64,000 nucleotides of DNA from an uncultured Poribacteria bacterium (GTDB lineage: Bacteria > Poribacteria > WGA-4E > WGA-3G). Made by a program: the position numbers and the translations under genes. The number at the start of each line of letters is the position of its first letter. Position 1 is the first letter of the stretch. The stretch lies in assembly GCA_951812525.1 (NCBI GenBank), contig OX638316.1:1190506-1254505 (forward strand). The letters are read 5' to 3'. The notes below the pieces were generated by a model. It did not search any database. It saw nothing but the letters and a program-made list of their open reading frames with translations, and was not told the origin of the DNA. Below, one piece after another: positions 1 through 25,362 of this stretch.

Positions 1-201
1 GAGATCCAAATCCGTCAGACTCGTCAAACCCGACAGTGAACTTATACTCGATATCACATTAGACGAGAGATTCAGCGTTTCAAGACGCGTCAGACGCGAG
101 AGTGGACTCAGACTCGCTATCTGATTACCTGAAAGCGTCAAACTCGTCAAATTCTCGGCTTTCTCAAGACCCGTGAGGGTAACAATACTTTGATTCGGTG
201 C
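1..201. repeat. 201-bp intragenic repeat, copy 1
   Basis: Bases 1-201 match 2593-2793 with a single mismatch that I can see (attacctg against attgcctg). The unit encodes three LRRs and the start of a cap module. Such near-identity inside a diverged LRR array points to recent recombination within the gene. Confidence 0.9.
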
Positions 202-3200
202 AGTGAAGGTCCTTAGTCGTGCCATATCTTCTGGAAAGATTGGATCTCCAAGCTCCAGGTTGAGATTTGGAAGATCATTAAGCGCCGTCCTGAGCGCTGC
301 CACTAAGTTATCATCTCGGAAGGTCACTAATCCTGGAAGTGTTATATCGATACTCGTCCGTGCGACCGTCTTGAGTTTTAAGAGCACTCTGACGTTCTCC
401 AACTGTCCAGACTGCGTAAGGTCACTGATCAGGTTGTCATTACCACGGAGATACAACGTCTTCAACTCCAAACCTGACAGGGGCGTAACATCTGTCACGT
501 CGTTATCTTTCGCATCCAATTTACTACTATCTCGCAGATCCAACGTCTTGAGACCACGCAAACCCGATAGCGATGACACATTCTTAATATTATTATCCGC
601 TAAATCCAACCACTCAAGACTACTCAAGCCCGACAACGGATCGATATTGACAATCACATTCTGACCCAAATCTAACGACTTAAGACTACTCAAGCCCCGC
701 AGATTCTGTGGCAGGTTCCCAATCGTATTACCTGCTAAATCCAACGACTCAAGACTACTCAAACTCGACAGCGGATTGATATTCTCAATCGCATTCTGTC
801 CCAAATCCAACACCGTCAATCCAGTTGCTGCTTCAAGTCCTGTCAAATCGTCTATCTGCTTACTGGTGGCTGTGAGACGCGTCAGGTCGGTTAGGTCCGG
901 CATATCGGCTATCGGTCCCCTTAAAATAGGATAACCTCTGGGGATTCGGAGCACACTTCGCACTGACGCTGCTAAGTTAGCATTATTGAAGACTACGATA
1001 TCCGACAGGTTTGGAAGTGTAATCCCCGCAGGCAAAGTTATAGTTGTAGGCGGATCCTTCTGACGGAGGGTATACAGCACTGACGCTTTCGCCATCGTTA
1101 GACCCGTATTCCCGGAGAGATCCAACGTCCTCAAGGCACGCAACCCCTGTAATGCCAAGACATCTGTTATCCGGTTATTAGAGAAGTCTAAACTCGTCAG
1201 ACTTGTGAGATTTGACAGAGTCGTCAGACTCGATATACTATTATTGGCGAGATTCAGCGTTTCAAGTGCTGTCAACTTCGCCAGGGAGCTGACACTTGAT
1301 ATTTTATTACCCGAAAGATACAAATCCGTCAGACCCGTCAAGCCCGATAACGCACTTATACTCGATATATTCTTATTACCCGAGAGATCCAGATCCGTCA
1401 GACCCGTCAGTTTTGATAGCGGGGTCAGACTCGTTATTGTATTACCCGAGAGATTCAAATCCGTCAAGCCCGTCGCCGTCTCAAGACCCGTGATGTTGAC
1501 TATACTCTTACTCGGCGCAGTGAATGTCCTTAGTCGTGCCATATCTTCTGAAAAGATTGGATCTCCAAGCTCCAGGTTGAGATTTGGAAGGGCGTTGAGC
1601 GAACTTCGGAGTGCTGCCACTAAGTTATCATCTTGGAACGTCACTAATCTCGGAAGTGTTATATCGATACTCGTCCGTGCGACCGTCTTGAGTTTTAAGA
1701 GCACTCTGACGTTCTCCAGTTGTTCAGACTGCGTAAGATCACTGATAAGGTTATCATTACCACGGAGATACAACGCCTTCAACTCCAAACCTGACAGGGG
1801 CGTAACATCTGTCACATCGTTATCTTTCGCATCCAATTTACTACTATCTCGCAGATCCAACGTCTTGAGACCACGCAAACCCGATAGCGATGACACACTC
1901 TCAATATTATTATCCGCTAAATCCAACTTCTCAAGACTACTCAAACCCGACAACAGACCGATATTTACAATCACATTCTGACCCAAATCCAACGACTCAA
2001 GACTACTCAAACCCTGCAGATTCCTTGGTAGGTTCCCAATCGTATTACCTGCTAAATCCAACGACACGAGGTTCGCCAAACTCGACAGCGGATCGATATC
2101 TGCAATCACGTTCTGACCCAAATCCAACGCCGTCAAGCCAGTTGCTGCTTCAAGTCCTGTCAAATCGTCTATCTTCCTAGACGCAGCTGTTAGGCGCGTC
2201 AACTTCGCCATTTTGCTCTTTGTAACAGGAAAGCCTGTCGATATACGCAATGTACTTCTCACCGCCGCTTCTAAGGCGGCATTCTTGAATGACACAAGAT
2301 CCTCATCCGTCGGGACTATTACGCCTGTTATCGTCGTGCCTCCCTGCCTGAGTCTATACAGCACGTCTGCATTCGTTATACCCGTATTTCCTGAGAGATC
2401 CAACTCCCTAAGACTGCTCAAATCTTGCAACGGCAATACATTTGTTATACGATTATCTGATAAATCCAACTCCGTCAGATTGATTAAACTTTTTAAGGTA
2501 GTTACACTCGATATATTATTTCCCGAAAGATCCAAATCCGTTAGATCCGTCAGACGGGACAACGAGCTTACACTTGATATCCTATTACCCGAGAGATCCA
2601 AATCCGTCAGACTCGTCAAACCCGACAGTGAACTTATACTCGATATCACATTAGACGAGAGATTCAGCGTTTCAAGACGCGTCAGACGCGAGAGTGGACT
2701 CAGACTCGCTATCTGATTGCCTGAAAGCGTCAAACTCGTCAAATTCTCGGCTTTCTCAAGACCCGTGAGGGTAACAATACTTTGATTCGGTGCGCTGAAC
2801 GTCGTTAGTCGTGCCATATCTTCCGGGAAGATCGCGTCATTAGTTCCTAAACTGAGCTCAGTTCGCAGTGCCGATTTCAAGTTTGCATCCCGGACTGTCA
2901 CTGCAACGGGGAGCGTAATGTCAACTGTTGTTCCTGCTTCTTTGAGTATTACAAGCTGCTTAAGGTCAGCAAGATTCTTGTTGCCACGCACATATAGATA
3001 TCTCAGGTGCGTCATTCCCGAGAGTAGCGCGGTATCGGTTACATTATTATTCCGCAGATCCAGCCGCTCAAGGTTCGTCAATCCTGAGAGCGAGGAGATA
3101 TTTGTAATTTGATTAGTCGCTAAATCCAAGTTTTCAAGGAGGGTCAATCCTGAGAGTGGAGTGAGATCTGAAATTGCATTCTGACCAATATCCAACGTTT

Positions 3201-6200
3201 TCAAGCCCCCAGCAGTCTCAAGCCCACTTAAGGAGGTTATGCCTTTGCCGGAGGCAGTTAGCCGCGTCAACTTTACTATTACATCCGGTAGGATAGGATC
3301 GGCAGCGGCTAACCGCAGTGCTCTTTTGACTGCCGCTTCTAAGTTCGCATCCGTGATTGTTACGGCATTGGGAACTGTTACACCCCTTATTGTTGTACCG
3401 CCTTGGTCGAGGTGATAGAGGGCACCTGGATTCGCGACGCTATTGCCACCCAGATTCAATTGTGTGAGATTATCCAAACCTGCCAGTGGTGACACATCCT
3501 TAATTTGATTATTACGCAAGTCTAATCTCTCAAGACGCGTCAAGTCTTCCAAGGGTTCGAGATCCTCAATCTCGTTATTACTGAGATTCAAATCCGTTAG
3601 ACGCGTCAAATCCTCTAACGGCTCCAGATCTTCTATGTTATTGTTCGAGAGCGTTAAGTCCGTCAAACCTTCCGCCGTTTCAAGACCTGTCAAATCGGAA
3701 ATACTGCGATTCAAAGCCGTTAGACTCGTAAGCCCGTCCATGTCTTCTGGAAGGATAGGGTCTCCGGTGGGTAAACCCATTTGTACGCGGAGTGCCGCCG
3801 CCAAGTTCTCATCCGGAATATTCACGCCTTTCGGCAGCGTAATATCTATACGCGTATTTTCGAGTTTGAGCAATTGCTTCACATTCTCAAGATTCGCATT
3901 TCCACGTAGATACAGATTCTTTAGGGTCGTCAAACTCGACAACGGGGTGACATCCCTCACATCGTTATCTTTCCCATCCGAGCTACTATTATCTCGCAGA
4001 TCCAACGTCTTGAGAACACTCAGACCCGATAGCGATGACACATTCTCAATATTATTATCCGCTAAATCCAACCACTCAAGACTACTCAAACTCGACAGCG
4101 GACCGATATTTACAATCACATTCTGACCCAAATCCAACCACTCAAGACTACTCAAACTCGACAACGGACCGATATCTGCAATCGCATTCTGACCCAAATT
4201 CAACGTCGTCAAGCCAGTTGCTGCTTCAAGTCCTGTCAAATCGTCTATCTGCTTACTGGTGGCTGTGAGACGCGTCAGGTCGGTTAGGTCCGGCATATCG
4301 GCTATCGGTCCCCTTAAAATAGGATAACCCCTGGGGATTCGGAGCACACTTCGCACTGACGCTGCTAAGTTAGCATTGTTGAAGACTACGATCTCCGACA
4401 GGTTCGGAAGTGTAATCCCCGCAGGTAAAGTTATAGTTGTAGGCGGACGCTTCTGACGGAGGGTATACAGCACTGACGCTTTCGCCATCGTTATACCCGT
4501 ATTCCCGGAGAGATCCAACGTCCTCAAGGCACGCAACCCCTGTAATGCCAAGACATCTGTTATCCGGTTATTAGAGAGATCTAAACTCGTCAGACTTGTG
4601 AGATTTGACAGAGTCGTCAGACTCGATATACTATTATTGGCGAGATTCAGGTTCGTCAGATTCGTGAGCTTTGACAGCGGACTTATACTTGATATTTTAT
4701 TACCCGAGAGATCCAAATCCGTCAGACCCGTCAAACCTGATAATGGACTTATACTCGATATATTCTTATTACCCGAGAGATTCAGATCCGTCAGATCCGT
4801 CAGTTTTGACAACGCACTTATACTCGATATGTTGTGACCCGAGAGATCCAAATCCGTCAAACCTGTCGCCGTCTCAAGACCTGTGAGAGTGGCGATAGTC
4901 GCATCCGATTGCGGATTCGGCGCCGAAAGGGTCGTTAAGCTCTGCATATCGACCGGGAAAATCGGGTCATCGTCTTGTAAACTGAGTCGGTCCCGCAGTA
5001 AGGACACTAAGTTATTATCTCCGAAGGTCACTGATCTCGGAAGTGTTATATCAATACTCGTCCGTGCGACCGTCTTGAGTTTTAAAAGTGTTCTGGCGTT
5101 CTCCAGTTGTCCAGACTGCGTAAGATCACTGATAAGGTTGTCATTACCTCGAAGATACAACGTCTTCAGCTCCAAACCTGACAGGGGCGTAACATCTGTC
5201 ACATCGTTATCTTTCGCATCCAATTTACTACTATCTCGCAGATCCAACGTCTTGAGACCACGCAAACCCGACAGCGATGACACATTCTTAATATTATTAT
5301 CCGCTAAATCCAACCACTCAAGACTACTCAAACTCGACAACGGATCGACATTGACAATCACATTCTGACCCAAATCCAACGACTTAAGACTACTCAAGCC
5401 CCGCAGATTCTGTGGCAGGTCCTCAATCGCATTACCTGCTAAATCCAATGACTCAAGACTACTCAAACTCGACAGCGGATTGATACTTTCAATCGCATTC
5501 TGACCCAAATCCAACGCCGTCAAGCCAGTTGCTGCTTCAAGTCCTGTCAAATCGTCTATCTGCTTACTAGTGGCAGTTAGACGCGTTAGCGTATCAAGTC
5601 CCTTTTCACCCGACGGTAAAATTGGGTGTCCCCTCAATATACGTAACGCACTTCGAACCGCTGTTTCTAAAGCCGTATTCGTGAATACCACCACTTCCCC
5701 AGGTTCAGGAACATCCATATCTGGCGGCAACGTTATCGTCGTTCCTGGTCTGAGCCTATATAGCACCGCCGCATTCGTTATACCCGTATTCCCTGAGAGA
5801 TTCAATGTCCTAAGACTGCTCAAACCTTGCAACGGCAACACATCCCGGATACGATTCGTGGAGAGATCCAAACTCGTCAAACTCGTCAAACTCGATAGCG
5901 AACTCAAACTCGATATCTGGTTACCTGAGAGGTTCAAAGTCGTTAGACCCGTCAGGCGGGACAACGCACTTATACTCGATATTTTATTATCCGATAGATC
6001 CAAATCCGTCAGACCCGTCAAGCCCGATAACGCACTTATACTCGATATATTCTTATTACCCGATAGATTCAGATCCGTCAGACCCGTCAGTTTTGATAGG
6101 GAGGTCAGACTCGTTATTGTATTACCCGAGAGATTCAAATCCGTCAAGCCCGTCGCCGTCTCAAGACCCGTGAGGGTAACAATACTTTGATTCGGTGCAG

Positions 6201-9200
6201 TGAATGTCCTTAGTCGTGCCATATCTTCTGAAAAGATTGGATCTCCAAGCTCCAGGTTGAGATTTGGAAGGGCGTTGAGCGAACTTCGGAGTGCTGCCAC
6301 TAAGTTATCATCTTGGAACGTCACTAATCTCGGAAGTGTTATATCGATACTCGTCCGTGCGACCGTCTTGAGTTTTAAGAGCACTCTGGCGTTCTCCAAC
6401 TGTCCAGACTGCGTAAGGTCACTGATCAGGTTGTCATTACCACGGAGATACAACGTCTTCAACTCCAAATCTGACAGGGGCGTAACATCTGTCACATCGT
6501 TATCTTTCCCATCCAATTTACTACTATCTCGCAGATCCAACGTCTTGAGAACACTTAGACCCGACAGCGATGACACATTCTTAATATTATTATCCGCTAA
6601 ATCCAACCACTCAAGACTACTCAAACTCGACAACGGACCGATATTTACAATCACATTCTGACCCAAATCCAACGTCTCAAGACTACTCAAGCCCCGCAGA
6701 TTCTCTGGTAGGTTCTCAATCGCATTACCTGCTAAATCCAATGACTCAAGACTACTCAAACTCGACAGCGGATTGATACTTTCAATCGCATTCTGTCCCA
6801 AATCCAACGCCGTCAAGCCAGTTGCTGCTTCAAGTCCTGTCAGGTCATCTATCTGCTTACTGGTGGCTGTGAGACGCGTCAGGTCGGTTAGGTCCGGCAT
6901 ATCGGCTATCGGTCCCTTTAAAATAGGATAACCTCTGGGGATTCGGAGCACACTTCGCACTGACGCTGCTAAGTTAGCATTGTTGAAGACTACGATATCC
7001 GACAGGTTTGGAAGTGTGATCCCCGCAGGCAAAGTTATAGTTGTAGGGGGATCCTTCTGATGAAGGGTATACAGCACTGACGCTTTCGCCATCGTTATAC
7101 CCGTATTCCCGGAGAGATCCAACGTCCTCAAGGCACGCAACCCCTGTAATGCCAAGACATCTGTTATCCGGTTATTAGAGAGATCTAAACTCGTCAGACT
7201 TGTGAGATTTGACAGAGTCGTCAGACTTGATATACTATTATTAGCGAGATACAGATTCGTCAGATTCGTGAGCTTTGACAGGGGGCTTATACTTGATATT
7301 TTATTACCCGAGAGATCCAAATCCGTCAGACCCGTCAAACCCGATAGTGAACTTATACTCGATATATTCTTATTACCCGATAGATTCAGATCCGTCAAAT
7401 CCATCAGACGGGACAACGCACTTATACTCGATATGTTGTGACCCGAGAGATTCAAATCCGTCAAACCTGTCGCCGTCTCAAGACCTGTGAGAGTGGCGAT
7501 AGTCTCACCCGATTGTGGATTCGGTGCCGAAAGGGTCGTTAAGGTCTGCATATCCACTGGGAAGATCGGGTCATCGTCTTGTAAACTGAGTCGGTTCCAC
7601 AGTAAGGACACTAAGTTATTATCTTGGAACGTCACTGATCTCGGAAGCGTTATATCGATACTCGTCCGTGCGACCGTCTTAAGTTTTACCAGTGTTCTGG
7701 CGTTCGCCAGTTGTCCCGACTGCGTAAGATCGCTAATCAGGTTATCATTACCACGAAGATATAACGTCTTCAGCTCCAAACCTGACAGGGGCGTAACATC
7801 TGTCACATCGTTATCTTTCCCATCCAATCTACTACTATCTCGCAGATCCAACGTCTTGAGACCACGCAAACCCGATAGCGATGACACATTCTTAATATTA
7901 TTATCCGCTAAATCCAACCACTCAAGACTACTCAACCCCGACAACAGATCGATACTTACAATCACATTCTGACCCAAATCCAACCACTCAAGACTACTCA
8001 AGCCCCGCAGATTCTCTGGTAGGTTCTCAATCGCATTACCTGCTAAATCCAACGACTCAAGGTTCGCCAAACTCGACAGCGGATTGATACTCTCAATCGC
8101 ATTCTGTCCCAAATCAAGACTTGTCAATCCCGTCGCTTCCTCAAGTCCTGTCAGGTCATCTATCTGCTTAGACGTCGCTGTTAGGCGCGTCAACTCCGCT
8201 ATTTTGCTCTTTGTAACAGGAAAGCCTGTCGATATACGCAATGTACTTCTCACCGCCGCTTCTAAGGCGGCATTCTTGAATGACACAAGATCCGCATCCG
8301 TCGGGACTGTCATACCATCAGGTGGCGTTATATTCGTCCCTCCCTGTTGGAGTAGATACAACACTTCTATATTCGTTATGCCATCATTGCCTAAAAGATT
8401 CAGCGTCCGTAGGCCGCTCAGACCCTGCAGCGGCAATACATTCGTTATACGATTATCTGATAAATCCAAACTCGTCAGATTGATGAGTCCCGATAAAGAA
8501 CTCACACTCGATATATTATTAGCCGACAGATACAAATCCGTCAGACTCGTCAGGCGGGTGAGGGAACTTACACTCGATATTCTATTGCCTGAAAGATCCA
8601 AATACGTCAGACTCATCAGACCTGAGAGCGAACTTATACTCGATATATTCTTATTACCCGACAAATTCAGATCCGTCAGATCCGTCAGTTTTGACAACGC
8701 ACTTATACTCGATATGTTGTGACCCGAGAGATCCAAATACGTCAAACCTGTCGCCGTCTCAAGACCTGTGAGAGTGGCGATAGTCGCATCAGATTGCGGA
8801 TTCGGTGCCGAAAGTCTTGTTAAGGTCTGCATATCGACCGGGAAAATCGGGTCATCGTCTTGTAAACTGAGTCGGTCGCGCAGTAGGGACACTAAGTTAT
8901 CATCTCCGAAGGTCACTGATCTCGGAAGTGTTATATCAATAGTCGTCCGTGCGACCGTCTTGAGTTTTACCAGTGCTCTGGCGTTCGCCAGTTGACCAGA
9001 CTGCGTAAGATCACTGATCAGGTTATCATTACCTCGAAGATACAACGTCTTCAACTCCACTCCTGACAGTGGAGTAACATCTGTCACATCGTTATCTTTC
9101 CCATCCGAGCTACTATTATCTCGCAGATCTAACGTCTTGAGAACACTTAGACCCGATAGCGATGACACATTCTCAATATTATTATCCGCTAAATCCAACT

Positions 9201-9582
9201 TCTCAAGACTACTCAACCCCGACAACGGATCGAGATTGACAATCACATTTTGACCCAAATCCAACTCTTCAAGGCTCGTTAAACCCGAAAGCGGTCCGAG
9301 ATTCACAATCGCATTATTGCCTAAATCCAAATGCGTCAAACCGGTCGCATTCTCAAGTCCGGTTAAATTGACTATCTCCTTATTAGTGGCTGTTAACCGC
9401 TCCAGCGTTTGGAGATCGTCCTCTAAAATGGGATCCGCATCCGCTATCCGCAGCGCACTTTTCACCACCGCTTCTAAATTGGCATCTGGGAATGTTACCT
9501 CGTTCCCTTGTGCGAAGGCACTACTAACCCAACAACTACACGCTATAAATACGAGGATTAAAGAAATATTCAATCGTTTCAT
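1..9582 (-). CDS. Giant secreted leucine-rich-repeat protein, 3' end outside window
   Basis: The reading frame starts at an ATG at 9582 and is still open at base 1, giving at least 3194 codons. The N-terminus (MKRLNISLILVFIACSCW..SSAFAQG) is a signal peptide with an AxA-type cleavage site; a GAGGGAAA sequence upstream can serve as ribosome binding site. The mature part is built only of 22-residue LRRs (pattern LxxLxxLxLxxNxIxxVSPL) interrupted by cap modules of the form DxNLxxAxRxxLxI..DPI, which I find near 9470, 8890, 8240, 7590, 6950, 6280, 5660, 4985, 4345, 3790, 3320, 2860, 2250, 1610, 960 and 290 (at least 16). It lies 90 bp downstream of the other giant LRR gene on the same strand with no promoter seen between, so co-transcription is likely. 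Unlike its neighbour it has no protease or cadherin domain at its start. The role is unknown; extracellular binding or adhesion is inference. The C-terminus (dockerin or sorting tail expected) is not visible. Confidence 0.9.
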   Translation of the reverse strand, partial: MKRLNISLILVFIACSCWVSSAFAQGNEVTFPDANLEAVVKSALRIADADPILEDDLQTLERLTATNKEIVNLTGLENATGLTHLDLGNNAIVNLGPLSGLTSLEELDLGQNVIVNLDPLSGLSSLEKLDLADNNIENVSSLSGLSVLKTLDLRDNSSSDGKDNDVTDVTPLSGVELKTLYLRGNDNLISDLTQSGQLANARALVKLKTVARTTIDITLPRSVTFGDDNLVSLLRDRLSLQDDDPIFPVDMQTLTRLSAPNPQSDATIATLTGLETATGLTYLDLSGHNISSISALSKLTDLTDLNLSGNKNISSISSLSGLMSLTYLDLSGNRISSVSSLTRLTSLTDLYLSANNISSVSSLSGLINLTSLDLSDNRITNVLPLQGLSGLRTLNLLGNDGITNIEVLYLLQQGGTNITPPDGMTVPTDADLVSFKNAALEAAVRSTLRISTGFPVTKSKIAELTRLTATSKQIDDLTGLEEATGLTSLDLGQNAIESINPLSSLANLESLDLAGNAIENLPENLRGLSSLEWLDLGQNVIVSIDLLSGLSSLEWLDLADNNIKNVSSLSGLRGLKTLDLRDSSRLDGKDNDVTDVTPLSGLELKTLYLRGNDNLISDLTQSGQLANARTLVKLKTVARTSIDITLPRSVTFQDNNLVSLLWNRLSLQDDDPIFPVDMQTLTTLSAPNPQSGETIATLTGLETATGLTDLNLSGHNISSISALSRLMDLTDLNLSGNKNISSISSLSGLTGLTDLDLSGNKISSISPLSKLTNLTNLYLANNSISSLTTLSNLTSLTSLDLSNNRITDVLALQGLRALRTLDLSGNTGITMAKASVLYTLHQKDPPTTITLPAGITLPNLSDIVVFNNANLAASVRSVLRIPRGYPILKGPIADMPDLTDLTRLTATSKQIDDLTGLEAATGLTALDLGQNAIESINPLSSLSSLESLDLAGNAIENLPENLRGLSSLETLDLGQNVIVNIGPLSSLSSLEWLDLADNNIKNVSSLSGLSVLKTLDLRDSSKLDGKDNDVTDVTPLSDLELKTLYLRGNDNLISDLTQSGQLENARVLLKLKTVARTSIDITLPRLVTFQDDNLVAALRSSLNALPNLNLELGDPIFSEDMARLRTFTAPNQSIVTLTGLETATGLTDLNLSGNTITSLTSLSKLTGLTDLNLSGNKNISSISALSGLTGLTDLDLSDNKISSISALSRLTGLTTLNLSGNQISSLSSLSSLTSLTSLDLSTNRIRDVLPLQGLSSLRTLNLSGNTGITNAAVLYRLRPGTTITLPPDMDVPEPGEVVVFTNTALETAVRSALRILRGHPILPSGEKGLDTLTRLTATSKQIDDLTGLEAATGLTALDLGQNAIESINPLSSLSSLESLDLAGNAIEDLPQNLRGLSSLKSLDLGQNVIVNVDPLSSLSSLEWLDLADNNIKNVSSLSGLRGLKTLDLRDSSKLDAKDNDVTDVTPLSGLELKTLYLRGNDNLISDLTQSGQLENARTLLKLKTVARTSIDITLPRSVTFGDNNLVSLLRDRLSLQDDDPIFPVDMQSLTTLSAPNPQSDATIATLTGLETATGLTDLDLSGHNISSISALSKLTDLTDLNLSGNKNISSISPLSGLTGLTDLDLSGNKISSISPLSKLTNLTNLNLANNSISSLTTLSNLTSLTSLDLSNNRITDVLALQGLRALRTLDLSGNTGITMAKASVLYTLRQKRPPTTITLPAGITLPNLSEIVVFNNANLAASVRSVLRIPRGYPILRGPIADMPDLTDLTRLTATSKQIDDLTGLEAATGLTTLNLGQNAIADIGPLSSLSSLEWLDLGQNVIVNIGPLSSLSSLEWLDLADNNIENVSSLSGLSVLKTLDLRDNSSSDGKDNDVRDVTPLSSLTTLKNLYLRGNANLENVKQLLKLENTRIDITLPKGVNIPDENLAAALRVQMGLPTGDPILPEDMDGLTSLTALNRSISDLTGLETAEGLTDLTLSNNNIEDLEPLEDLTRLTDLNLSNNEIEDLEPLEDLTRLERLDLRNNQIKDVSPLAGLDNLTQLNLGGNSVANPGALYHLDQGGTTIRGVTVPNAVTITDANLEAAVKRALRLAAADPILPDVIVKLTRLTASGKGITSLSGLETAGGLKTLDIGQNAISDLTPLSGLTLLENLDLATNQITNISSLSGLTNLERLDLRNNNVTDTALLSGMTHLRYLYVRGNKNLADLKQLVILKEAGTTVDITLPVAVTVRDANLKSALRTELSLGTNDAIFPEDMARLTTFSAPNQSIVTLTGLEKAENLTSLTLSGNQIASLSPLSRLTRLETLNLSSNVISSISSLSGLTSLTDLDLSGNRISSVSSLSRLTDLTDLDLSGNNISSVTTLKSLINLTELDLSDNRITNVLPLQDLSSLRELDLSGNTGITNADVLYRLRQGGTTITGVIVPTDEDLVSFKNAALEAAVRSTLRISTGFPVTKSKMAKLTRLTAASRKIDDLTGLEAATGLTALDLGQNVIADIDPLSSLANLVSLDLAGNTIGNLPRNLQGLSSLESLDLGQNVIVNIGLLSGLSSLEKLDLADNNIESVSSLSGLRGLKTLDLRDSSKLDAKDNDVTDVTPLSGLELKALYLRGNDNLISDLTQSEQLENVRVLLKLKTVARTSIDITLPRLVTFQDDNLVAALRSSLNALPNLNLELGDPIFSEDMARLRTFTAPSKSIVNITGLETATGLTDLNLSGNTITSLTPLSKLTGLTDLDLSGNKNISSISALSGLTGLTDLYLSGNKISSVSSLAKLTALETLNLANNSISSLTTLSNLTSLTSLDFSNNRITDVLALQGLRALRTLDLSGNTGLTMAKASVLYTLRQKDPPTTITLPAGITLPNLSDIVVFNNANLAASVRSVLRIPRGYPILRGPIADMPDLTDLTRLTATSKQIDDLTGLEAATGLTVLDLGQNAIENINPLSSLSSLESLDLAGNTIGNLPQNLRGLSSLKSLDLGQNVIVNIDPLSGLSSLEWLDLADNNIKNVSSLSGLRGLKTLDLRDSSKLDAKDNDVTDVTPLSGLELKTLYLRGNDNLISDLTQSGQLENVRVLLKLKTVARTSIDITLPGLVTFRDDNLVAALRTALNDLPNLNLELGDPIFPEDMARLRTFTAPNQSIVTLTGLEKAENLTSLTLSGNQIASLSPLSRLTRLETLNLSSNVISSISSLSGLTSLTDLDL
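2593..2793. repeat. 201-bp intragenic repeat, copy 2
   Basis: Second copy of the unit at 1-201, in the same orientation and reading frame (offset 2592 bp, a multiple of three). The following sequence diverges immediately, into a different cap module. Confidence 0.9.
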
Positions 9583-9672: not shown

Positions 9673-12600
9673 CTACTTGATAATCATCATCTTCCGTAGG
9701 AGCGAGACACCCTCTGTTTCGAGTTGGTAGAAGTAGATACCGCTCGCAACACGCTCACCGACCTCATTACGACCATCCCAATACGCTGCACGACTGGGAA
9801 TTCTGTAATACCCTTCAGATCGATAGCCCAACGCTAAACGTCGGACAACCGCACCCTTGGTATCATAAATCGCAATCCAGACATTGCTGCCACGCGCTAA
9901 CTGATACGGAATCCATGTTTCTGGATTGAACGGATTCGGATAGTTTACCAACAGTAAGGTCTGATTCGGTTGGATCGTTATCAGAATCGCCTGTAGGAAC
10001 GCAATCGTCTGCTGATATTTCAAAGAACCATCGCTTTTAGCACTCAGAATCGCAAGCTGCACGCGCAACTGACCGGCATCTATTCGTTCCAGCAGCTGCC
10101 AATTCAGGTCCGTATCCTGCACACTAAGCAGTGGCGGAGCAAGACGCACAGGACGATCCTGCTTCTCAAAGACAAACAGAAGATCATCAGTATCCACAAG
10201 ACCATCTCTGTTCGCATCCGCTGCCTCCCGATCCTCTCCATTAACTAAACCGTCTCCGTTGACATCTGGCGATTCTCCTGTGATGGTTGCCGTTATCAGA
10301 TACAGATCCGCTTCATCTACATCACTATCTTGGTTGACATCCCAGAACGGATACCGATATATCGTAATATCAATTTCGGTTCCACGACGTTCCAACTCCC
10401 GGAGCACAGAGGTGTCCAAAATCGGATTCCCAGCAAGCATTAACGTTTCAAGAGAATACAACTTCGAAAGCGGGGTGACATCTGTTATCCGATTGTTCCG
10501 CAAATCCAAACTTGTCAAACTCGTCATGTACTCACAGCCGCTAAGGTCTACTATGTTTCTATTCGAGGCTGGTAACGCCTCTAAACTTTCAAGAAGTTCC
10601 TCTGACAGCGGTAGATCATTGGATACCGTATTTCCTGCTGATCGGAGAGCGGTGCGGACAGCACTATCTAAATTTGCGTCTGGGATTCTGACGACATCCG
10701 GCAGATTAATATCCGATCGGAGATTTTCAAGCGCACCCAGCCATTCCAGGTTCTCAAGATTCTCATTGCCTCGAAGATAGATTTGGTTCAGGTTTGTTAA
10801 ATCCTTCAGCGGGGTAACATCCATCACAGCGTTATCTCGTAATTCCAGTCGCGTTAGACTACTTAAATTGCGCAGTGGCGACACATCTTCAATCTGATTA
10901 TCGTCCAAATCCAAAATTGTTAGATTACTCAAACCCGATAGTGAACGCAATGTTTCAATCTCGTTACCCGCTAAGTCCAACGTAGTCAAACCCGTCAAAT
11001 TTTCAAGCGGTTCCAAATCCGAAATCGCATTATCACCCAAATCCAAACTCTCAAGACGCATTGCTTGTTCAAGTCCCGTCAGGTCATCTATCCCTTTACG
11101 CGTCGCTGTTAGACGTATGAGGTCAGTTATTTTCTCTGGATAAATCGGGTAACCTGTCGATATACGCAACGCACTTCTCACTGACGCTTCTAAAGCTGTA
11201 TTGTTGAACACCACAGCGTTTGTCGGGAGCCTTATCCCTGGTGGCAAAACTACGGTCGTACCACCTTGCTCAAGTTTATAGAGCACATCCGCATTTGTTA
11301 TACCTACATTGCCAGAAAGGTTCAACGTCCGCAGACGACTCAAAACTTGCAGGGGTAAAACATTCCGAACCCGATTATCTGATAGGTTCAACGTCGTTAG
11401 ACTGCTTAAACCCGACAGTGAAGTTAGCGTTATTATCTGGTTCATCGACAGATTCAGTGTTGTTAGATTCGTCAGGCGAGAGAGCGAACTCACACTCGAT
11501 ATCCGATTACCTGAAAGATTCAAATCCGTCAGACTCGTCAAACCTGATAGCGAACTCACACTCGATATCTGATTAGTAGACAGGTTCAAATCCGTCAGAT
11601 GCGCCAAACGTGAGAGTGGACTTAGACTTGTAATCTGATTGTCCGAAAGCACCAAACGCGTCAACGCCGTGGCTGTCTCAAGACCCGTCAGGGTGACGAT
11701 ACCCGCATTCGGTGCGCTAAACGTCGTTAGCACTTCCATATCTTCGGGGAAGATTGGATCGTCGGGTTGTAAACCCAACGCACTTCGTAGGAATACCTTC
11801 AAGTTATCATCTCCGAACGTCACAGGTCTAGGGAGTGTAATGTCTACTATCGTCCCCGCTTCCTTGAGTTTTACGAGCTGCTTGAGACTCTCAAGATTCT
11901 CATTGCCGCGCACATACAGATACCGCAGATGCGTCATCCGCGAGAGTAGCGCGGTATCGGTTACATTGTTATTTCGCAAATCCAACCGCTCAAGGCGCGT
12001 CAAACCTGAGAGCGAGGATATATTTGTTATCGGATTATCCGCTAAATCCAACCGCTCAAGGCGCGTCAAACCTGAGAGTGGACCGAGATCCGAAATCGCA
12101 TTCTGACCGACATCTAATGTTTCCAACAGACCGGCATCCTCAAGTCCACTCAAGGAAGTTATACTTTTACCGGCGGCAGTTAGCTGCGTCAGTGTTGCCA
12201 TTACGTCTGGAGAGATAGGATCCGCAGCGGCTATCCGCAAAGCCTGTCTTACCACCGCTTCCAAGTTGGCATCAACAAATATAACATCCGTCGGGACATC
12301 AACACCTGTTATCGTTGTGCCGCCTCGCTGTAGTTCATAGAGTGCTCCCGGATTCGCGACGCTATTACCGCCGAGTTGCAACAGCGTCAGGCTTTCTAAT
12401 CCTGCCAATGGTGCAACATCTGTTATTAGATTATTCCGCAAGTCTAACGTTTCAAGACTCGTCAAATCTTCCAGCGGTTCGAGATCAACAATTTGGTTAT
12501 TACTGAGATTCAAATCCGTCAGACCCGCCAAATCTCCCAGCGGTTCGAGATCTTCAATCATATTATTCGAGAGCGTTAAATCTGTTACATCCGTCGCTGC

Positions 12601-15600
12601 TTCAAGACCCGTCAAATCGGAGATACTCCGATTTGTAGCTGTTAGGTTTGTTAATTGTTCCATCTCCTCTGGAAGGATGGGATCGTCGGTCGGTAAACTC
12701 AGTGCACTTCGTAAGGCTGCTGCTAAGTTCGTATCCGGAATATCAACGAAGTCAGGGAGAGTTATATCTATCGTCGTGCTGGCGAGTTTTAAGAGTCGTT
12801 TGATATTCGTCAGATTCTCATTACCGCGCAGATACAGATGCGTCAGATGTGTCATCCCTGATAGCGGCGTGACATCCATTATGTTGTTATTGCGTAGCTC
12901 TAAACGCCTCAAACTACTCAAACCTGATAACGCTGACACATTCTCAATCTTATTATTATTATCTAAATTCAAACTTGTTAGACGCGTCAAATTCTGTAGC
13001 GACGACACATTTTCAATTTGATTATACGACAAATCCAAACTTGTTAGACGCGTCAAGTCTGATAGCGGACTCAGACTAACGATCACATTATTGTCCAAAT
13101 CTAAACTCGTCAAACCTGTCGCCTTCTCAAGACCTGTCAAATTGACGATCGATTTACGCGTCGCCGTTAGACTCGTGAGATCATCAATATCCGTCTCTAA
13201 AACCGGATCATTACTGGCTATCCGCAGCACACTCTTAACCGCTGTCTCTAAGTTGTCATCCGTGAATACTACAGCATCAGGAATCTCTATCCCCGGCGGC
13301 AATGTTATCGTCGTACCACCTTGTTCGAGATGGTACAACTTCTCTGGATTCGTTATGCCCGTATTACCGCTCAGATCCAAAGTCGTCAGACTACTCAAGT
13401 CCTCCAGCGGTGAGACATCTGTTATCGAATTATTCGACAGATTCAATGTCTCAAGACTACTCAAACCCGAAAGATTTGACAGATTGACAATCTTATTAGC
13501 CGATAGATTTAGCGTCGTCAGACCGCTTAAGTCTTTGAGGTAGCGGAGATTGGCAATCTTATTACCTGATAGGTCCAGCGTCTCAAGATCCACTAAATCC
13601 TCCAATGGACTGAGATCGACAATCTCATTACCAGAGAGCGTCAAACTCGTCAAACCCGTCGCCTCCTCAAGACCCGTAAGGGTGACAATACTCTGACTTG
13701 ACGCGCTAAACGTCGTTAGCGTCGCCATCTCCGATGGGATAATCGGATCGTTGGTGGGGATATTCAGCTCACTTCGTAAGGCTGCGGCTAAGTTCGTATC
13801 GGGAATATCGACTGGATCTGGTAGGTCTATATCTATCGTCGTACTGGTCAGTTTCAGAAGTTGTTTGATATTCGTCAGATTCTCATTACCACTCAGATAC
13901 AGATGCGTCAAGTGTGTCATCCCTGACAGCGGCGTGACATCCATGACATCGTTATTTAGCAGCTCCAAACGCGTCAAGCTACTTAAACTCGATAGCGATG
14001 ACACATTCTCAATCTTATTACCATCTAAATCTAAACGCTCAAGACTACTCAAACCCGATAACGCTGATACATTCTCAATCTTATTACCATCTAAATCTAA
14101 ACGCGTCAAACTCGTTAAGCCTGATAGCGGACTCAGGCTAACAATCGAATTCTGACCCAAGTCTAATGTTGTTAAACCCGTGGCTTCCTCAAGACCCGTA
14201 AGGGTGACGATCTCTTTATTGGTCGCTGTTAGACTCGTGAGATCATCAATATCCGTCTCTAAAACCGGATCATTACTGGCTATCCGCAGCACACTCTTAA
14301 CCGCCGTCTCTAAGTTGTCATCCGTGAATACTACAGCATCAGGAATCTCTATCCCCGGCGGCAATGTTATCGTCGTACCACCTTGTTCGAGATGGTACAA
14401 CTTCTCTGGATTCGTTATGCCCGTATTACCGCTCAGATCCAAAGTCGTCAGACTACTCAAGTCCTCCAGCGGCGAGACATCCGTTATCGCATTATTCGAC
14501 AGATTCAATGTCTCAAGACTACTCAAACCCGAAAGATTTGACAGATTGACAATCTTATTAGCTGACAGATTTAGCGTCGTCAGACCGCTTAAGTCTTTGA
14601 GGTAGCGGAGATTGGCAATCTTATTACCTGACAGGTCCAGCGTCTCAAGATCCACTAAATCCTCCAATGGATTTAGATCGACAATCTCATTACCAGAGAG
14701 CGTTAAACTCGTCAAACCCGTCGCCTCCTCAAGACCCGTAAGGGTGACAATACTCTGACTTGACTCGCTAAACGTCGTTAGCGTCGCCATCTCCGATGGG
14801 ATAATCGGATCGTTGGTGGGGATATTCAGCGCACTTCGTAAGGCTGCGGCTAAGTTCGTATCCGGAATATCAACTGGATTTGGTAGGTCTATATCTATCG
14901 TCGTACTGGTCAGTTTCAGAAGTTGTTTGATATTCGTCAGATTCTCATTACCATTCAGATACAGATGCGTCAAGTGTGTCATCCCTGACAGCGGCGTGAC
15001 ATCCATGACCTTGTTATTTCGCAGCTCCAAACGCGTCAAGCTACTTAAACTCGATAGCGATGACACATTCTCAATCTTATTACCATCTAAATCTAAACGC
15101 TCAAGATTACTCAAACCCGATAACGCTGATACATTCTCAATCTTATTACCATCTAAATCCAAACGCGTCAAACTCGTTAAGCCTGATAGCGGACTCAGGC
15201 TAACAATCGAATTCTGACCCAAGTCTAATGTTGTTAAACCCGTGGCTTCCTCAAGACCGGTGAGTGTGACGATACTCTTATTCGTTGCGCTGAACGTCGT
15301 CAACGTCGCCATATCCTCCGGGAAGATAGAATCACTGGACGGGATACTCAAAGCACTGCGTAGTGCTGACGCTAAGTTCGTATCGGGAACATTAACCGGA
15401 TCTGGAAGATCTATATCTATCGTCGTACTGGTCAGTTTGACGAGGTGTTTGATATTTGTAAGATTCTCATTACCACTCAGATACAGATGCGTCAGATGTG
15501 TCATTGTTGACAATGGCGTGACATCCATGACATCATTATTCCGCAAATTCAGTGTCTCAAGACTACTTAAGCCCGATAATGATGATACATTTTCAATCTT

Positions 15601-18090
15601 ATTACCATCCAAATCCAACGTCTCAAGATTCGTCAAATTTCGCAGCGGCGACACATTCTCAATCGCATTACCCGCTAAATCCAAACCCGTCAAACTCGTC
15701 AAACCCGAAAGCGGACTCAGGCTAACAATCGAATTCTGACCCAAGTCTAATGTTGTTAAACCCGTGGCTTCTTCAAGACCCGTCAAATTCACGATCTCTT
15801 TATCGGTCGCTGTTAGACTCATGAGATCATCAATATCCGTCTCTAAAACCGGATCACTATTAGTTATCCCCAACGTATCTTTAACCGCCATCTCCAAATT
15901 ATCATCCGTGAACACTACAGCATCGGGAATCTCTATCCCCGGCGGCAACGTTATACGCGTCCCATCTTGTTCGAGATTGTACAACTTCTCTGGATTCGTT
16001 ATACCTGTATTTCCACTCAGATTCAAGGTCGTCAGACGACTCAAACCTGCCAGAGGTGAAACATCCGTTATCAAATTATTCGACAGATTTAATGTCACAA
16101 GATTACTCAAACCCGAAAGATTTGACAGATCCACAATCGCATTAGCTGACAGATTTAGCGTCGTCAAACTCGTCAAGTCTTCGAGGTATTGGAGATTTAC
16201 AATGTCATTCCGCGAGAGATTCAGTGTCTCAAGACTCACCAAATTCTCTAAGGCACTCAAATCAACAATCTCATTATTTGAAAGCACCAAATCCGTTAAA
16301 CCCGTCGCATATTCGAGTCCCGTCAGATCGCTTATGTCATCCCCTGACGCTGTCAAACTCATAAGAGATGCCAACGCATTCGTAAGGATAGACGCTTCTG
16401 AGGCTATACCCAGCGCCCTTCGCACCGCTGCTGCCAACGCTGTATCTGTAAAAGACACGATCCCAATGACGTTGATCGTGACCCTGATACTACCCGTGAG
16501 ATTTTCACTACCTGTCGCTATGACGGTTATCTCATACGTCCGCCGGGTATCATAGTTGAGCGAGGACCTGGTCTTCAATTGACCGGTTGTGCTTTCAATA
16601 GAAAAGGATCCTGCATCCGTGCCACCAAGGCTATAGGTTAAGGCGGGGTCATTGGGGTCTTCGTCCGTCGCCAACACAGGCGCACCGATATTTTGATTTG
16701 CTGAGGTCCCCTCTAATATTTCGCGAGTCGTGCTGGCTGTAGAAAACCTAGGTGGATCGTTGGCATCCGTGACGTTAATGGTAACCTCAATTGTATCTTC
16801 TATGGTACCATCATCGACAACGACAGTTAGGGTATAGGTATCTTTGACCTCGTAGTTAAGAGGCACTGATGTCTTCAACTGTCCGGTTGTGCTGTCAATA
16901 GCAAACGATGCGGCATCTGTCCCTCTGAGGCTGTAAGTCAAGGTGTCACCCGTGTCAGAATCTTCCGCTGTCACAGCACTACCGATATTTGTACCCGCAG
17001 CGGTATTCTCTGCTACTGAGCGGGTAGTAGTATCTGTGGCAAACACGGGTGGTGAGTTGATTGTCCATCCCATATCTTCAAGCATACCGAGCAAAATGGG
17101 ACCCGGATGGTGAATCGCTTCTGCCTGCCTAATAAACGGAGTCATTAAAGAGTTCGGGTCTTCTGCCGGGTATGTACTGTTATCCAAGTGGACGAAACTT
17201 GCACCCTGACTCCAGGTACTGGTTGCTTGAATCTTAGGACGGGATCCATCGTTTGCGGCTTTCCCTTGCGTCCCATCCCAGAAGAGGTCGTCACTGATAA
17301 ACTGTGTGAAAAGAACAGGGGACGGATCTTCAAAAGATGTGATCGCTGTCCCGGATCCATTTACCACAAAACTATCGTAGATATATGGATACCTCGGGTT
17401 TCCCTTCCTAACATAACCCTCGCTATCTTCTACAGTAGCAGCACTATAAACGCCGAGACCGTGGGCAATTTCATGAAGTGCAACGGTAACGAAGTCAAAT
17501 TGACCCGATGGTGGGTTGGCATTTGTGCCAAAATACCAGTTCATTGCGGGGTTATTGTTGAGAACCACGTTGATGTCTGCATTAAGAATATCCCTGTCCC
17601 GTCCTGCAAGTTTATTAGCGAGTGCCGCAGGGTACCACAGATTTGTTGCCCCGTGAGAAAACTTACCTAGCAAAATTGTACTGCCTATGCTCAAGATTCC
17701 AAGGTTTGTAAAGTCCACCTCTATCCGGATTGGTACCGGAGGCTGGATAAACGAAGCCCAGATGTCAACCGCATGTTGAAATGCTGCTCTCGCTCCCGCC
17801 GGAGCACGACCGTAGTATGTTACCACAAATTGTGAATCCGTTGTCCTCACCCTGCGATCACGCCCAGGTCTTTTCGCCAAGGGTGGTGGTGGAATACTGG
17901 TATTTGCATCTTCATGAATACCAATTAAAAAGCAGACCTGCCCATTGGCATGGTCACAATGATGTTGGTGAAGTGGTTGTGAAAAACCCCTCCCTTCTAA
18001 CATCCGATCTTGACTTATGGCGTGGGGCAAAACGCTAAACAGAAGGAATATCGAAAAAGAGAAGGCAAATATTATTTTCGCAAGTTTCAT
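9673..18090 (-). CDS. Giant secreted zinc-protease/cadherin/LRR/dockerin protein
   Basis: Start chosen at the ATG at 18090, which begins a signal peptide (MKLAKIIFAFSFS...HAISQ); an in-frame TTG at 18126 would add 12 residues. The protein is about 2805 aa. Order: a metalloprotease-like domain with HEIAHGLG (about residues 203-210, an HExxHxxG zinc site; the third metzincin histidine is not in the usual place); two cadherin-type repeats (about 347-537, each with a SFxIDSTTGQLKT-type motif); then about 2000 residues of 22-residue LRRs split by 12 cap modules (DxNLxxAxRxALxI); a type I dockerin (about 2583-2640, DVNQDSDVDEADLY and DVNGDGLVNGED); a linker; and a C-terminal FlgD/T9SS-like domain with YPNPFNPETWIPY, WDGRN and GIYFYQLE. 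It is presumably secreted and surface-bound. A sigma-54-type promoter lies 180-198 bp upstream. The protease activity and ligand are not known. Confidence 0.93.
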   Translation of the reverse strand: MKLAKIIFAFSFSIFLLFSVLPHAISQDRMLEGRGFSQPLHQHHCDHANGQVCFLIGIHEDANTSIPPPPLAKRPGRDRRVRTTDSQFVVTYYGRAPAGARAAFQHAVDIWASFIQPPVPIRIEVDFTNLGILSIGSTILLGKFSHGATNLWYPAALANKLAGRDRDILNADINVVLNNNPAMNWYFGTNANPPSGQFDFVTVALHEIAHGLGVYSAATVEDSEGYVRKGNPRYPYIYDSFVVNGSGTAITSFEDPSPVLFTQFISDDLFWDGTQGKAANDGSRPKIQATSTWSQGASFVHLDNSTYPAEDPNSLMTPFIRQAEAIHHPGPILLGMLEDMGWTINSPPVFATDTTTRSVAENTAAGTNIGSAVTAEDSDTGDTLTYSLRGTDAASFAIDSTTGQLKTSVPLNYEVKDTYTLTVVVDDGTIEDTIEVTINVTDANDPPRFSTASTTREILEGTSANQNIGAPVLATDEDPNDPALTYSLGGTDAGSFSIESTTGQLKTRSSLNYDTRRTYEITVIATGSENLTGSIRVTINVIGIVSFTDTALAAAVRRALGIASEASILTNALASLMSLTASGDDISDLTGLEYATGLTDLVLSNNEIVDLSALENLVSLETLNLSRNDIVNLQYLEDLTSLTTLNLSANAIVDLSNLSGLSNLVTLNLSNNLITDVSPLAGLSRLTTLNLSGNTGITNPEKLYNLEQDGTRITLPPGIEIPDAVVFTDDNLEMAVKDTLGITNSDPVLETDIDDLMSLTATDKEIVNLTGLEEATGLTTLDLGQNSIVSLSPLSGLTSLTGLDLAGNAIENVSPLRNLTNLETLDLDGNKIENVSSLSGLSSLETLNLRNNDVMDVTPLSTMTHLTHLYLSGNENLTNIKHLVKLTSTTIDIDLPDPVNVPDTNLASALRSALSIPSSDSIFPEDMATLTTFSATNKSIVTLTGLEEATGLTTLDLGQNSIVSLSPLSGLTSLTRLDLDGNKIENVSALSGLSNLERLDLDGNKIENVSSLSSLSSLTRLELRNNKVMDVTPLSGMTHLTHLYLNGNENLTNIKQLLKLTSTTIDIDLPNPVDIPDTNLAAALRSALNIPTNDPIIPSEMATLTTFSESSQSIVTLTGLEEATGLTSLTLSGNEIVDLNPLEDLVDLETLDLSGNKIANLRYLKDLSGLTTLNLSANKIVNLSNLSGLSSLETLNLSNNAITDVSPLEDLSSLTTLDLSGNTGITNPEKLYHLEQGGTTITLPPGIEIPDAVVFTDDNLETAVKSVLRIASNDPVLETDIDDLTSLTATNKEIVTLTGLEEATGLTTLDLGQNSIVSLSPLSGLTSLTRLDLDGNKIENVSALSGLSSLERLDLDGNKIENVSSLSSLSSLTRLELLNNDVMDVTPLSGMTHLTHLYLSGNENLTNIKQLLKLTSTTIDIDLPDPVDIPDTNLAAALRSELNIPTNDPIIPSEMATLTTFSASSQSIVTLTGLEEATGLTSLTLSGNEIVDLSPLEDLVDLETLDLSGNKIANLRYLKDLSGLTTLNLSANKIVNLSNLSGLSSLETLNLSNNSITDVSPLEDLSSLTTLDLSGNTGITNPEKLYHLEQGGTTITLPPGIEIPDAVVFTDDNLETAVKSVLRIASNDPVLETDIDDLTSLTATRKSIVNLTGLEKATGLTSLDLDNNVIVSLSPLSDLTRLTSLDLSYNQIENVSSLQNLTRLTSLNLDNNNKIENVSALSGLSSLRRLELRNNNIMDVTPLSGMTHLTHLYLRGNENLTNIKRLLKLASTTIDITLPDFVDIPDTNLAAALRSALSLPTDDPILPEEMEQLTNLTATNRSISDLTGLEAATDVTDLTLSNNMIEDLEPLGDLAGLTDLNLSNNQIVDLEPLEDLTSLETLDLRNNLITDVAPLAGLESLTLLQLGGNSVANPGALYELQRGGTTITGVDVPTDVIFVDANLEAVVRQALRIAAADPISPDVMATLTQLTAAGKSITSLSGLEDAGLLETLDVGQNAISDLGPLSGLTRLERLDLADNPITNISSLSGLTRLERLDLRNNNVTDTALLSRMTHLRYLYVRGNENLESLKQLVKLKEAGTIVDITLPRPVTFGDDNLKVFLRSALGLQPDDPIFPEDMEVLTTFSAPNAGIVTLTGLETATALTRLVLSDNQITSLSPLSRLAHLTDLNLSTNQISSVSSLSGLTSLTDLNLSGNRISSVSSLSRLTNLTTLNLSMNQIITLTSLSGLSSLTTLNLSDNRVRNVLPLQVLSRLRTLNLSGNVGITNADVLYKLEQGGTTVVLPPGIRLPTNAVVFNNTALEASVRSALRISTGYPIYPEKITDLIRLTATRKGIDDLTGLEQAMRLESLDLGDNAISDLEPLENLTGLTTLDLAGNEIETLRSLSGLSNLTILDLDDNQIEDVSPLRNLSSLTRLELRDNAVMDVTPLKDLTNLNQIYLRGNENLENLEWLGALENLRSDINLPDVVRIPDANLDSAVRTALRSAGNTVSNDLPLSEELLESLEALPASNRNIVDLSGCEYMTSLTSLDLRNNRITDVTPLSKLYSLETLMLAGNPILDTSVLRELERRGTEIDITIYRYPFWDVNQDSDVDEADLYLITATITGESPDVNGDGLVNGEDREAADANRDGLVDTDDLLFVFEKQDRPVRLAPPLLSVQDTDLNWQLLERIDAGQLRVQLAILSAKSDGSLKYQQTIAFLQAILITIQPNQTLLLVNYPNPFNPETWIPYQLARGSNVWIAIYDTKGAVVRRLALGYRSEGYYRIPSRAAYWDGRNEVGERVASGIYFYQLETEGVSLLRKMMIIK
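13163..14224. repeat. 1,062-bp tandem duplication inside LRR gene, unit 1
   Basis: Bases 13163-14224 and 14225-15286 are adjacent direct copies (354 codons each), matching almost base for base over long stretches, for example the cap modules around 13200 and 14262. Each unit encodes two cap modules plus about ten LRRs. Copy edges are approximate, because similarity decays gradually near the end of unit 2. Confidence 0.85.
14225..15286. repeat. 1,062-bp tandem duplication inside LRR gene, unit 2
   Basis: Second unit of the in-frame 354-codon duplication. Scattered single-base changes distinguish it from unit 1 (for example S to A and N to D in the encoded LRRs), so the duplication is recent but not a simple assembly double. 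Confidence 0.85.
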
Positions 18091-24560: not shown

Positions 24561-24801
24561 TAAACCATAATTTTATTATTTTATTTTTATTTATAAACAA
24601 CTATTTTATGGTTCATTATTATTTATCAACTCTACCACTTTAGAGTCCGCATTAGACAGAAGCCTTGGTTATCAATCGTAAATTCAGCAGGAAATACCTC
24701 AAATATGCAAGAAATGCAGCGATCTTCGAGAGCGATTGAGTCCTTATCCAGAAATACAATTTTAGTTGTAATTTGTGAGAGGGGGTAACAATTTTCGCAT
24801 T

Positions 24802-25362
24802 ATGGACAAAGAAAATGAGGCTCAACTGATTAACGATGTTTTGGACGGTGATGACACCGCATTCAACACCTTAGTCCGAAAGTATCAGAAAAGTATCCAT
24901 GCATTTGTGTGGCAAAAGATTGGCGATTTTCACTTCGCTGAAGAGATTACGCAAGACACTTTCCTCAAAGCACATACAAATCTTTCGACCCTCAATGATC
25001 CGAGTCAGTTTTCTGGATGGCTGTATGCCATCGCGAATCGGCTCAGCATTAATTGGATTCAAAGAAACAAATCCACGGTGCACTCGCTGGAGGATATATC
25101 GGTGTGGGAAATAGAAAAATCCTCTTACAGACATTACGTCTTAGAGGAACGCGAGCGAGAAGCAACTGAAGATCGCTATCAACGTGTGGAAAATCTTTTG
25201 GAAAGGCTACCGAAAAATGAGCAGACAGTCATCACCCTCTATTACTTCGGTGAAATGACAACCAAAGAGATAGCGAATTTGTTGGGAGTATCCGTAAACA
25301 CAATTACAAGCCGGCTCCAGCGCGCCCGAAAACGTATGCAGAAGATGATTAAGAACACCTAA
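24802..25362 (+). CDS. ECF-type RNA polymerase sigma factor
   Basis: 186 aa from the ATG at 24802 (a GTG at 24775 is the alternative and would include the GAGAGGGGG stretch that may be the ribosome binding site). Region 2 is recognisable in AFNTLVRKYQKSIHAFVWQK and AEEITQDTFLKAH, followed by SGWLYAIANRLSINWIQR; region 4 in LERLPKNEQTVITLYYFG and the helix-turn-helix MTTKEIANLLGVSVNTITSR. The protein ends shortly after region 4, with no C-terminal extension. No anti-sigma gene is next to it; the next gene is the 1606-aa LRR protein. A sigma-54-type promoter upstream suggests that this sigma factor is itself switched on by sigma-54 RNA polymerase. Its targets are unknown. Confidence 0.92.
   Translation: MDKENEAQLINDVLDGDDTAFNTLVRKYQKSIHAFVWQKIGDFHFAEEITQDTFLKAHTNLSTLNDPSQFSGWLYAIANRLSINWIQRNKSTVHSLEDISVWEIEKSSYRHYVLEEREREATEDRYQRVENLLERLPKNEQTVITLYYFGEMTTKEIANLLGVSVNTITSRLQRARKRMQKMIKNT

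Follow-up and report, generated by a model that had tools for sequence, protein, structure and literature searches.

The window, by which we mean the whole stretch of 64,000 nucleotides analysed here (G000:C1:1190506-1254505), begins inside a giant LRR gene, and raises the question of where this gene ends, whether its repeats are real and what its product could do. The window is part of a single contig of 5,062,467 bases (5.06 Mb) that makes up the whole genome G000 of a member of Candidatus Poribacteria; as this phylum is sponge-associated, it suggests a sponge origin. The initial annotation described a single minus-strand frame of at least 3194 codons, starting at the ATG at 9582 and running off the window edge. 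This frame (gene A, 1..9582, minus strand, residues 1-3194 of 3820) is open throughout its 3194 codons in the window. It does continue past the edge, but not far. Reading the contig 20 kb leftward added 1880 bases (626 codons and a stop; L003:8120-9999, minus strand) up to a normal stop, and the complete gene A (L003:8120-19582, minus strand) encodes 3820 aa. The chance that a random sequence of the same composition would stay open across the full frame is about 10^-97. The start codon is closely preceded by GAGGG, a ribosome-binding-like motif, and is followed by a signal-peptide-like N-terminus seen in the sequence (MKRLNISLILVFIACSCWVSSAFAQ, 9508..9582, minus strand).

The gene A product consists of the signal-peptide-like start, 18 LRR modules of 116-223 aa, each with its own N-terminal cap, a dockerin-like segment and an FlgD_ig/T9SS-type C-terminal tail. 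No cargo domain precedes module 1. Sixteen modules lie in the window, all on the minus strand. Modules 1-9 (3826..9498) show a strict odd/even alternation of cap-LRR domains. Modules 10 and 11 (2902..3825) are short (154 aa each), occupy the centre of the array and are positional orthologues of modules 12-13 in the 4053-codon gene of a relative. Modules 12-16 occupy positions 1..2901, with module 16 cut by the window edge, and modules 17 and 18, the dockerin-like segment and the sorting tail are situated left of the window. Antisense ORFs of 150-263 aa inside genes A and B were interpreted as mechanical by-products of the repeats.

Gene B (9673..18090, minus strand) has the orientation of gene A and is separated from the upstream side of that gene by 90 bases. 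Its product is 2805 aa long from the ATG at 18090 and 2817 aa long from an upstream TTG; the ATG is the better start because the signal-peptide-like segment begins there. The signal-peptide-like start is followed by a metalloprotease-like domain, two cadherin domains, 12 modules, a dockerin and a tail. The metalloprotease-like domain (17065..17646, minus strand) carries the motif HEIAHGLG, and the whole protein scores 55.0 bits with family NF038122, below the cut-off of 80; a PDB sequence search with the first 347 residues gave no match at E ≤ 0.01. The cadherin domains (16471..17031, minus strand, limits approximate) match PF00028 in two stretches with 82.9 bits. The twelve cap-LRR modules (10345..16458, minus strand), whose 3′ part is mosaic with a distant paralogue, are followed by a dockerin type I segment (10171..10341, minus strand; PF00404, 23.5 bits, cut-off 22.9) and an FlgD-Ig-like/T9SS-type C-terminal sorting tail (NYPNPFNPETWIPY; 9676..9951, minus strand). 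The 2805-aa neighbour consecutive with gene A was thus described correctly. The two genes had also been said to form more than 18 kb of consecutive LRR coding DNA; the adjacency of the two LRR genes stands, but the first ~550 residues of gene B are metalloprotease-like and cadherin sequence, not LRR. The estimate of at least 28 cap modules agrees exactly with 16 in the window part of gene A and 12 in gene B, once four hits of the search pattern that are not caps had been removed, in agreement with the profile; the complete pair has 18 + 12 = 30.

The modules were assigned to an LRR class by profile and PDB searches. The LRR_4 family matched at E = 0, internalin models scored up to 1007 bits, and internalin A headed the matches of the PDB sequence search. 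The BspA-type class LRR_5 (PF13306) was ruled out, having no match in genome G000. The prediction of module and junction structure, suggested as a check by the initial annotation, was carried out for modules 3-4-5 (6307..8322, minus strand) with AlphaFold2, using as input 18 in-register rows, which were drawn from the window and from locus L034 of a relative. The model reached a mean pLDDT of 91.3 and a pTM of 0.71, and presents three separate internalin-type capped LRR domains. In VIA-align comparisons, the even module (residues 226-440) overlays InlB 1d0b over 199 residues at 1.8 Å (Z 26.7) and InlA 2omx over 199 residues at 1.4 Å (Z 26.8), the cap included in both cases; the odd module (7-225) overlays InlB 7pv9 over 197 residues at 2.0 Å (Z 23.5). 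Internalin A also ranked top in Foldseek, yet with an rmsd above 30 Å across long alignments, and VIA-align alignments covering more than one module mostly exceeded 20 Å. Because single modules overlay internalins closely and multi-module alignments mostly do not, every cap is predicted to start a new domain, with the modules arranged as beads. One continuous super-solenoid is disfavoured, since the close matches break at the module borders. The lower pTM would fit flexible joints between the modules.

The modules of gene A fall into two classes. Odd modules are mostly 69-93% identical among themselves, and even modules mostly 61-93%, with the exception of the divergent modules 10 and 18; the amino acid identity between odd and even modules is about 43%. 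Direct repeats in gene A recur at about 1.29 kb, and the duplication unit is the odd-even module pair of this length. Among 38 genomes of the genus, only 2 contain the odd-even junction sequence (E ≤ 1e-14), while single cap modules are present in 78 of 85 genomes sampled in the phylum. In the nearest relative, G028, the gene A orthologue, D, is a 4053-codon gene with 20 caps. The cap counts per ORF are 20 (D), 18 (A), 14, 14, 12 and then 7 or fewer; they cover the inspected ORFs only, and arrays of this kind may be interrupted in draft assemblies. A 4869-codon ORF of G003 (contig 46, L131:2-12508, plus strand) was considered as a longer LRR array and rejected: it consists mostly of Big_12 and cadherin stretches (at least 18 and 10, respectively), with a small LRR part of few repeats and the same tail.

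The history of the pairs was followed in a 90-module tree that covers seven genes from the two species (G000 and G028). Modules 1, 10, 11 and 18 of gene A pair or group with their counterparts in D. In A, the majority of the internal odd modules (3, 5, 7, 9, 13 and 15) form one G000-only clade, and the odd modules 3, 5, 7, 9 and 15 of D group with other G028 modules. The even modules behave like the odd ones, with weaker support. Since the bookend modules group across species and the internal pairs by species, the pairs were either amplified separately in both lineages or homogenised within each. A PSCyt/PSD1 gene, seemingly the same one, is found next to gene A (L002:9014-12829, minus strand) and next to a 3239-codon paralogue in G028 (L116:9812-13642, plus strand), while D sits elsewhere in G028. 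This points to a rearrangement of the giant genes between the two species.

The distant paralogue of gene B, C (G000:C1:1726622-1732009), comprises 1796 codons with 6 modules and is located about 530 kb from genes A and B. The DNA identity of B and C is 86.6% in the first aligned module (module 8 of B and 2 of C) and 94-99.6% across the four C-terminal modules and the tail, one module being identical in protein. The N-terminal parts share 81% on average, fluctuating from 63 to 99% in 150-base steps. Gene conversion is the best explanation for this patchwork between loci 530 kb apart.

Selection was estimated as dN/dS pooled over five module sets with Nei-Gojobori counts. The values were 0.03 for the LRR core, 0.51 for the concave face, 0.38 for the convex face and 0.29 for cap and linker. 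The gene is kept as a protein, and the LRR scaffold is under strong purifying selection. The pooled difference of 0.13 between concave and convex faces was not significant (bootstrap interval −0.07 to 0.41), the results by module class were mixed, and no pooled dN/dS above 1 was obtained for the concave faces. Diversifying selection on the concave face is not claimed, as the bootstrap interval spans zero.

Both proteins end in a sorting tail of the kind associated with type IX secretion. The gene A tail scores 24.3 bits with TIGR04183 (cut-off 23); the gene B tail is not listed for this family, and scores 27.8 bits with FlgD_ig, just over the cut-off of 27. By sequence, the EF-hand part of the C-terminal tail matches dockerins and the last part FlgD. 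Its fold comparison was dominated by an internalin-like cap module, and no fold neighbour was assigned to the tail. Genomes of 30 species of the genus contain 50-106 matches of the tail family each, and all named relatives with the same tail are Candidatus Poribacteria MAGs. The genome encodes a divergent SprA/Sov-like homologue of 2248 aa (G000:C1:1481073-1487819; L129:3073-9819, minus strand) with four matching stretches and 140.9 bits, below the equivalog cut-off of 200. Elsewhere in the genome are 16 matches of the PorV family, 7 of them over the cut-off, and three matches of Peptidase_C25 over the cut-off. GldL and GldM searches gave no match in G000, and none in the control genomes either. 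Since the SprA homologue is below the cut-off and GldL/GldM are silent here and in the controls, a type-IX-like export route for the tails of A and B is no more than plausible. In the part of Kamke et al. 2014 (PMC3909097) consulted, TIGR04183 tails are described for Poribacteria, and Por structural genes are reported as not found. The SprA-like, PorV and Peptidase_C25 homologues bear on the secretion route of these tails, and the complete genome provides candidate export machinery for them.

The dockerin-like segment of gene A scores 20.1 bits with PF00404, below the cut-off of 22.9. Cohesin has 12 matches in the genome, all over the cut-off, several of them in other LRR proteins that end with a dockerin and the same tail. 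In at least six of the eight cohesin proteins scanned, the chain continues from the cohesin to a dockerin. The surface proteins at L141-L145 and L147 (G000:C1) show this order followed by the same sorting tail, except L147, which has no tail, and LRR proteins make up four of them. Such a neighbourhood of cohesin and dockerin is odd, and may represent a stalk or an assembly device. The window itself encodes two more LRR proteins with Big_12 Ig-like domains, a dockerin and a sorting tail (26001-30821 and 31003-33639, plus strand), just downstream of an ECF sigma factor gene (24775-25362, plus strand).

The reading that we prefer, with a probability of roughly 0.6, is that A and B are exported multivalent adhesins of the outer surface, built of independent internalin-type capped LRR domains, 18 in A and 12 in B. 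For export, the proteins would depend on the signal peptide and on a type-IX-like pathway recognising the conserved C-terminal tail; they would then be held at the cell surface. The concave LRR face of each domain would bind protein or glycan ligands, the likeliest sources being the sponge matrix, the cells of the sponge or microbes nearby, and the many sites per chain would provide avidity. Unequal recombination would duplicate the odd-even pair as a whole in A and in its orthologue D, and gene conversion would swap segments among the dispersed paralogues, so that the binding surface could be lengthened and reshuffled quickly. The pooled dN/dS test speaks against this reading in that it gave no sign of domains selected for different ligands.

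Several other explanations can be set against the adhesin reading. The LRR chain could be a stalk or mesh that distances N-terminal domains, such as the metalloprotease-like and cadherin domains of B, from the cell, with faces that bind nothing particular. The homogeneity of the modules, the strong constraint on their core, the concave faces without positive selection and an array length varying freely among relatives (6, 12, 14, 18 and 20 modules) are in line with such a spacer or coat. However, gene A carries no cargo to be distanced, internalin-type caps that close each module as a separate fold are a costly spacer design, and long chains encoded elsewhere in the genus are built from Big_12 and cadherin arrays; we consider this explanation unlikely. 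A role as scaffold of an extracellular complex, for degradation or of the cohesin-dockerin type, in which the dockerin-like segment joins A and B to cohesin proteins and the LRRs hold substrates near the protease, appears somewhat less credible still. The dockerin of gene B and the cohesins described above speak for it, but the order of cohesin and then dockerin in one chain fits a local stalk equally well, the dockerin of gene A is below the cut-off, and the protease-like domain, also below the cut-off, is found in B and not in A.

It might also be supposed that mis-assembly of the repeats, which are up to 95.6% identical over 505 bases, has inflated or shortened the array. Mis-assembly of the gene A array is unlikely because the longest exact repeat within the ORF is 192 bases, the core dN/dS is low and the 4053-codon homologue of the same architecture comes from an independent assembly. 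The frame is intact through 18 modules of a single 5.06 Mb contig, and the independently assembled relative carries homologues with 14-20 modules. An artefact of this kind therefore has a very low probability. A further extension of the adhesin reading is a recombining recognition repertoire, with capped domains serving as interchangeable cassettes that are duplicated pairwise and swapped among the giant genes, tracking a variable host or neighbour surface. We regard this proposal as quite doubtful.

LRR proteins of sponge symbionts are frequent candidates for host interaction, without a concrete anatomy; here, both the domain unit and the copy unit are clear. Expansion that appears independent in two related genomes would make binding and recombination testable per domain, and the array would be a natural example for studying how a giant surface gene of a bacterium undergoes concerted evolution.

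The two alternating module classes, the pair as duplication unit, the sorting tail and the exchange between loci go beyond what the initial annotation had noticed; its mention of symbiont-type bacteria agrees with the phylum. The array had been called extreme by the initial annotation. As to size, this view was rejected, since larger bacterial proteins are known (PMC11573180, PMC12863079) and UniProt contains 41,754 proteins of at least 5000 aa (PMC11573180). It holds for the capped LRR domains per chain, 12-20 against no more than 7 beyond this small gene family in the relatives inspected. The Giant1-5 genes of Apilactobacillus kunkeei, in the part of the source consulted (PMC12863079), are five consecutive genes for extracellular surface proteins of 3000-8000 aa diversified by recombination. 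They resemble A and B as consecutive giant genes for extracellular proteins in a host-associated bacterium, but belong to a lactic acid bacterium and have β-solenoid N-termini, and no internalin-type LRR modules are described there. The poribacterial “eukaryote-like” LRR (pfam12799) and cadherin proteins with TIGR04183 tails share phylum, domain types and tail with A and B; the consulted part of Kamke et al. 2014 (PMC3909097) counts domains and does not describe giant arrays or module pairs. A literature search for internalin domains in tandem, or for proteins resembling internalins in sponge symbionts, gave no relevant paper among those covered. Within the genus, other LRR-tail proteins (such as a 3240-codon ORF of G010 and a 2348-codon ORF of G005) combine cap-LRR modules with the tail as A and B do, but, unlike A, carry no more than 7 caps in a chain and do not match the odd-even junction.

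The closest known domains are those of the internalins InlA, InlB, InlH and InlF, which share with A and B an N-terminal cap followed by a domain of 22-residue LRRs. The cap and LRR of the modules overlay InlA 42-246 and InlB 39-241, the single modules at 1.4-2.0 Å, and the identity of the even module to InlA and InlB is 32-35%. Internalins of Listeria are secreted surface proteins, as A and B would be in the adhesin reading. Each internalin chain contains a single capped LRR domain; an Ig-like inter-repeat region comes after it, and anchoring is of the LPXTG or GW type. The A/B family, in contrast, has 6-20 capped domains directly in series and a T9SS-type C-terminus. No LRR-adjacent Ig-like inter-repeat family was found among the Pfam matches (E ≤ 0.001), each module running directly into the next cap, and no LPXTG or GW anchor is present in A or B, whose C-terminus is FlgD_ig/Por_Secre_tail-like. 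A and B use internalin-type domains yet are not internalins, since they have neither the Ig-like region nor the anchor. Their unusual features are the number of closed LRR domains per chain and the two-class alternation, rather than their length.
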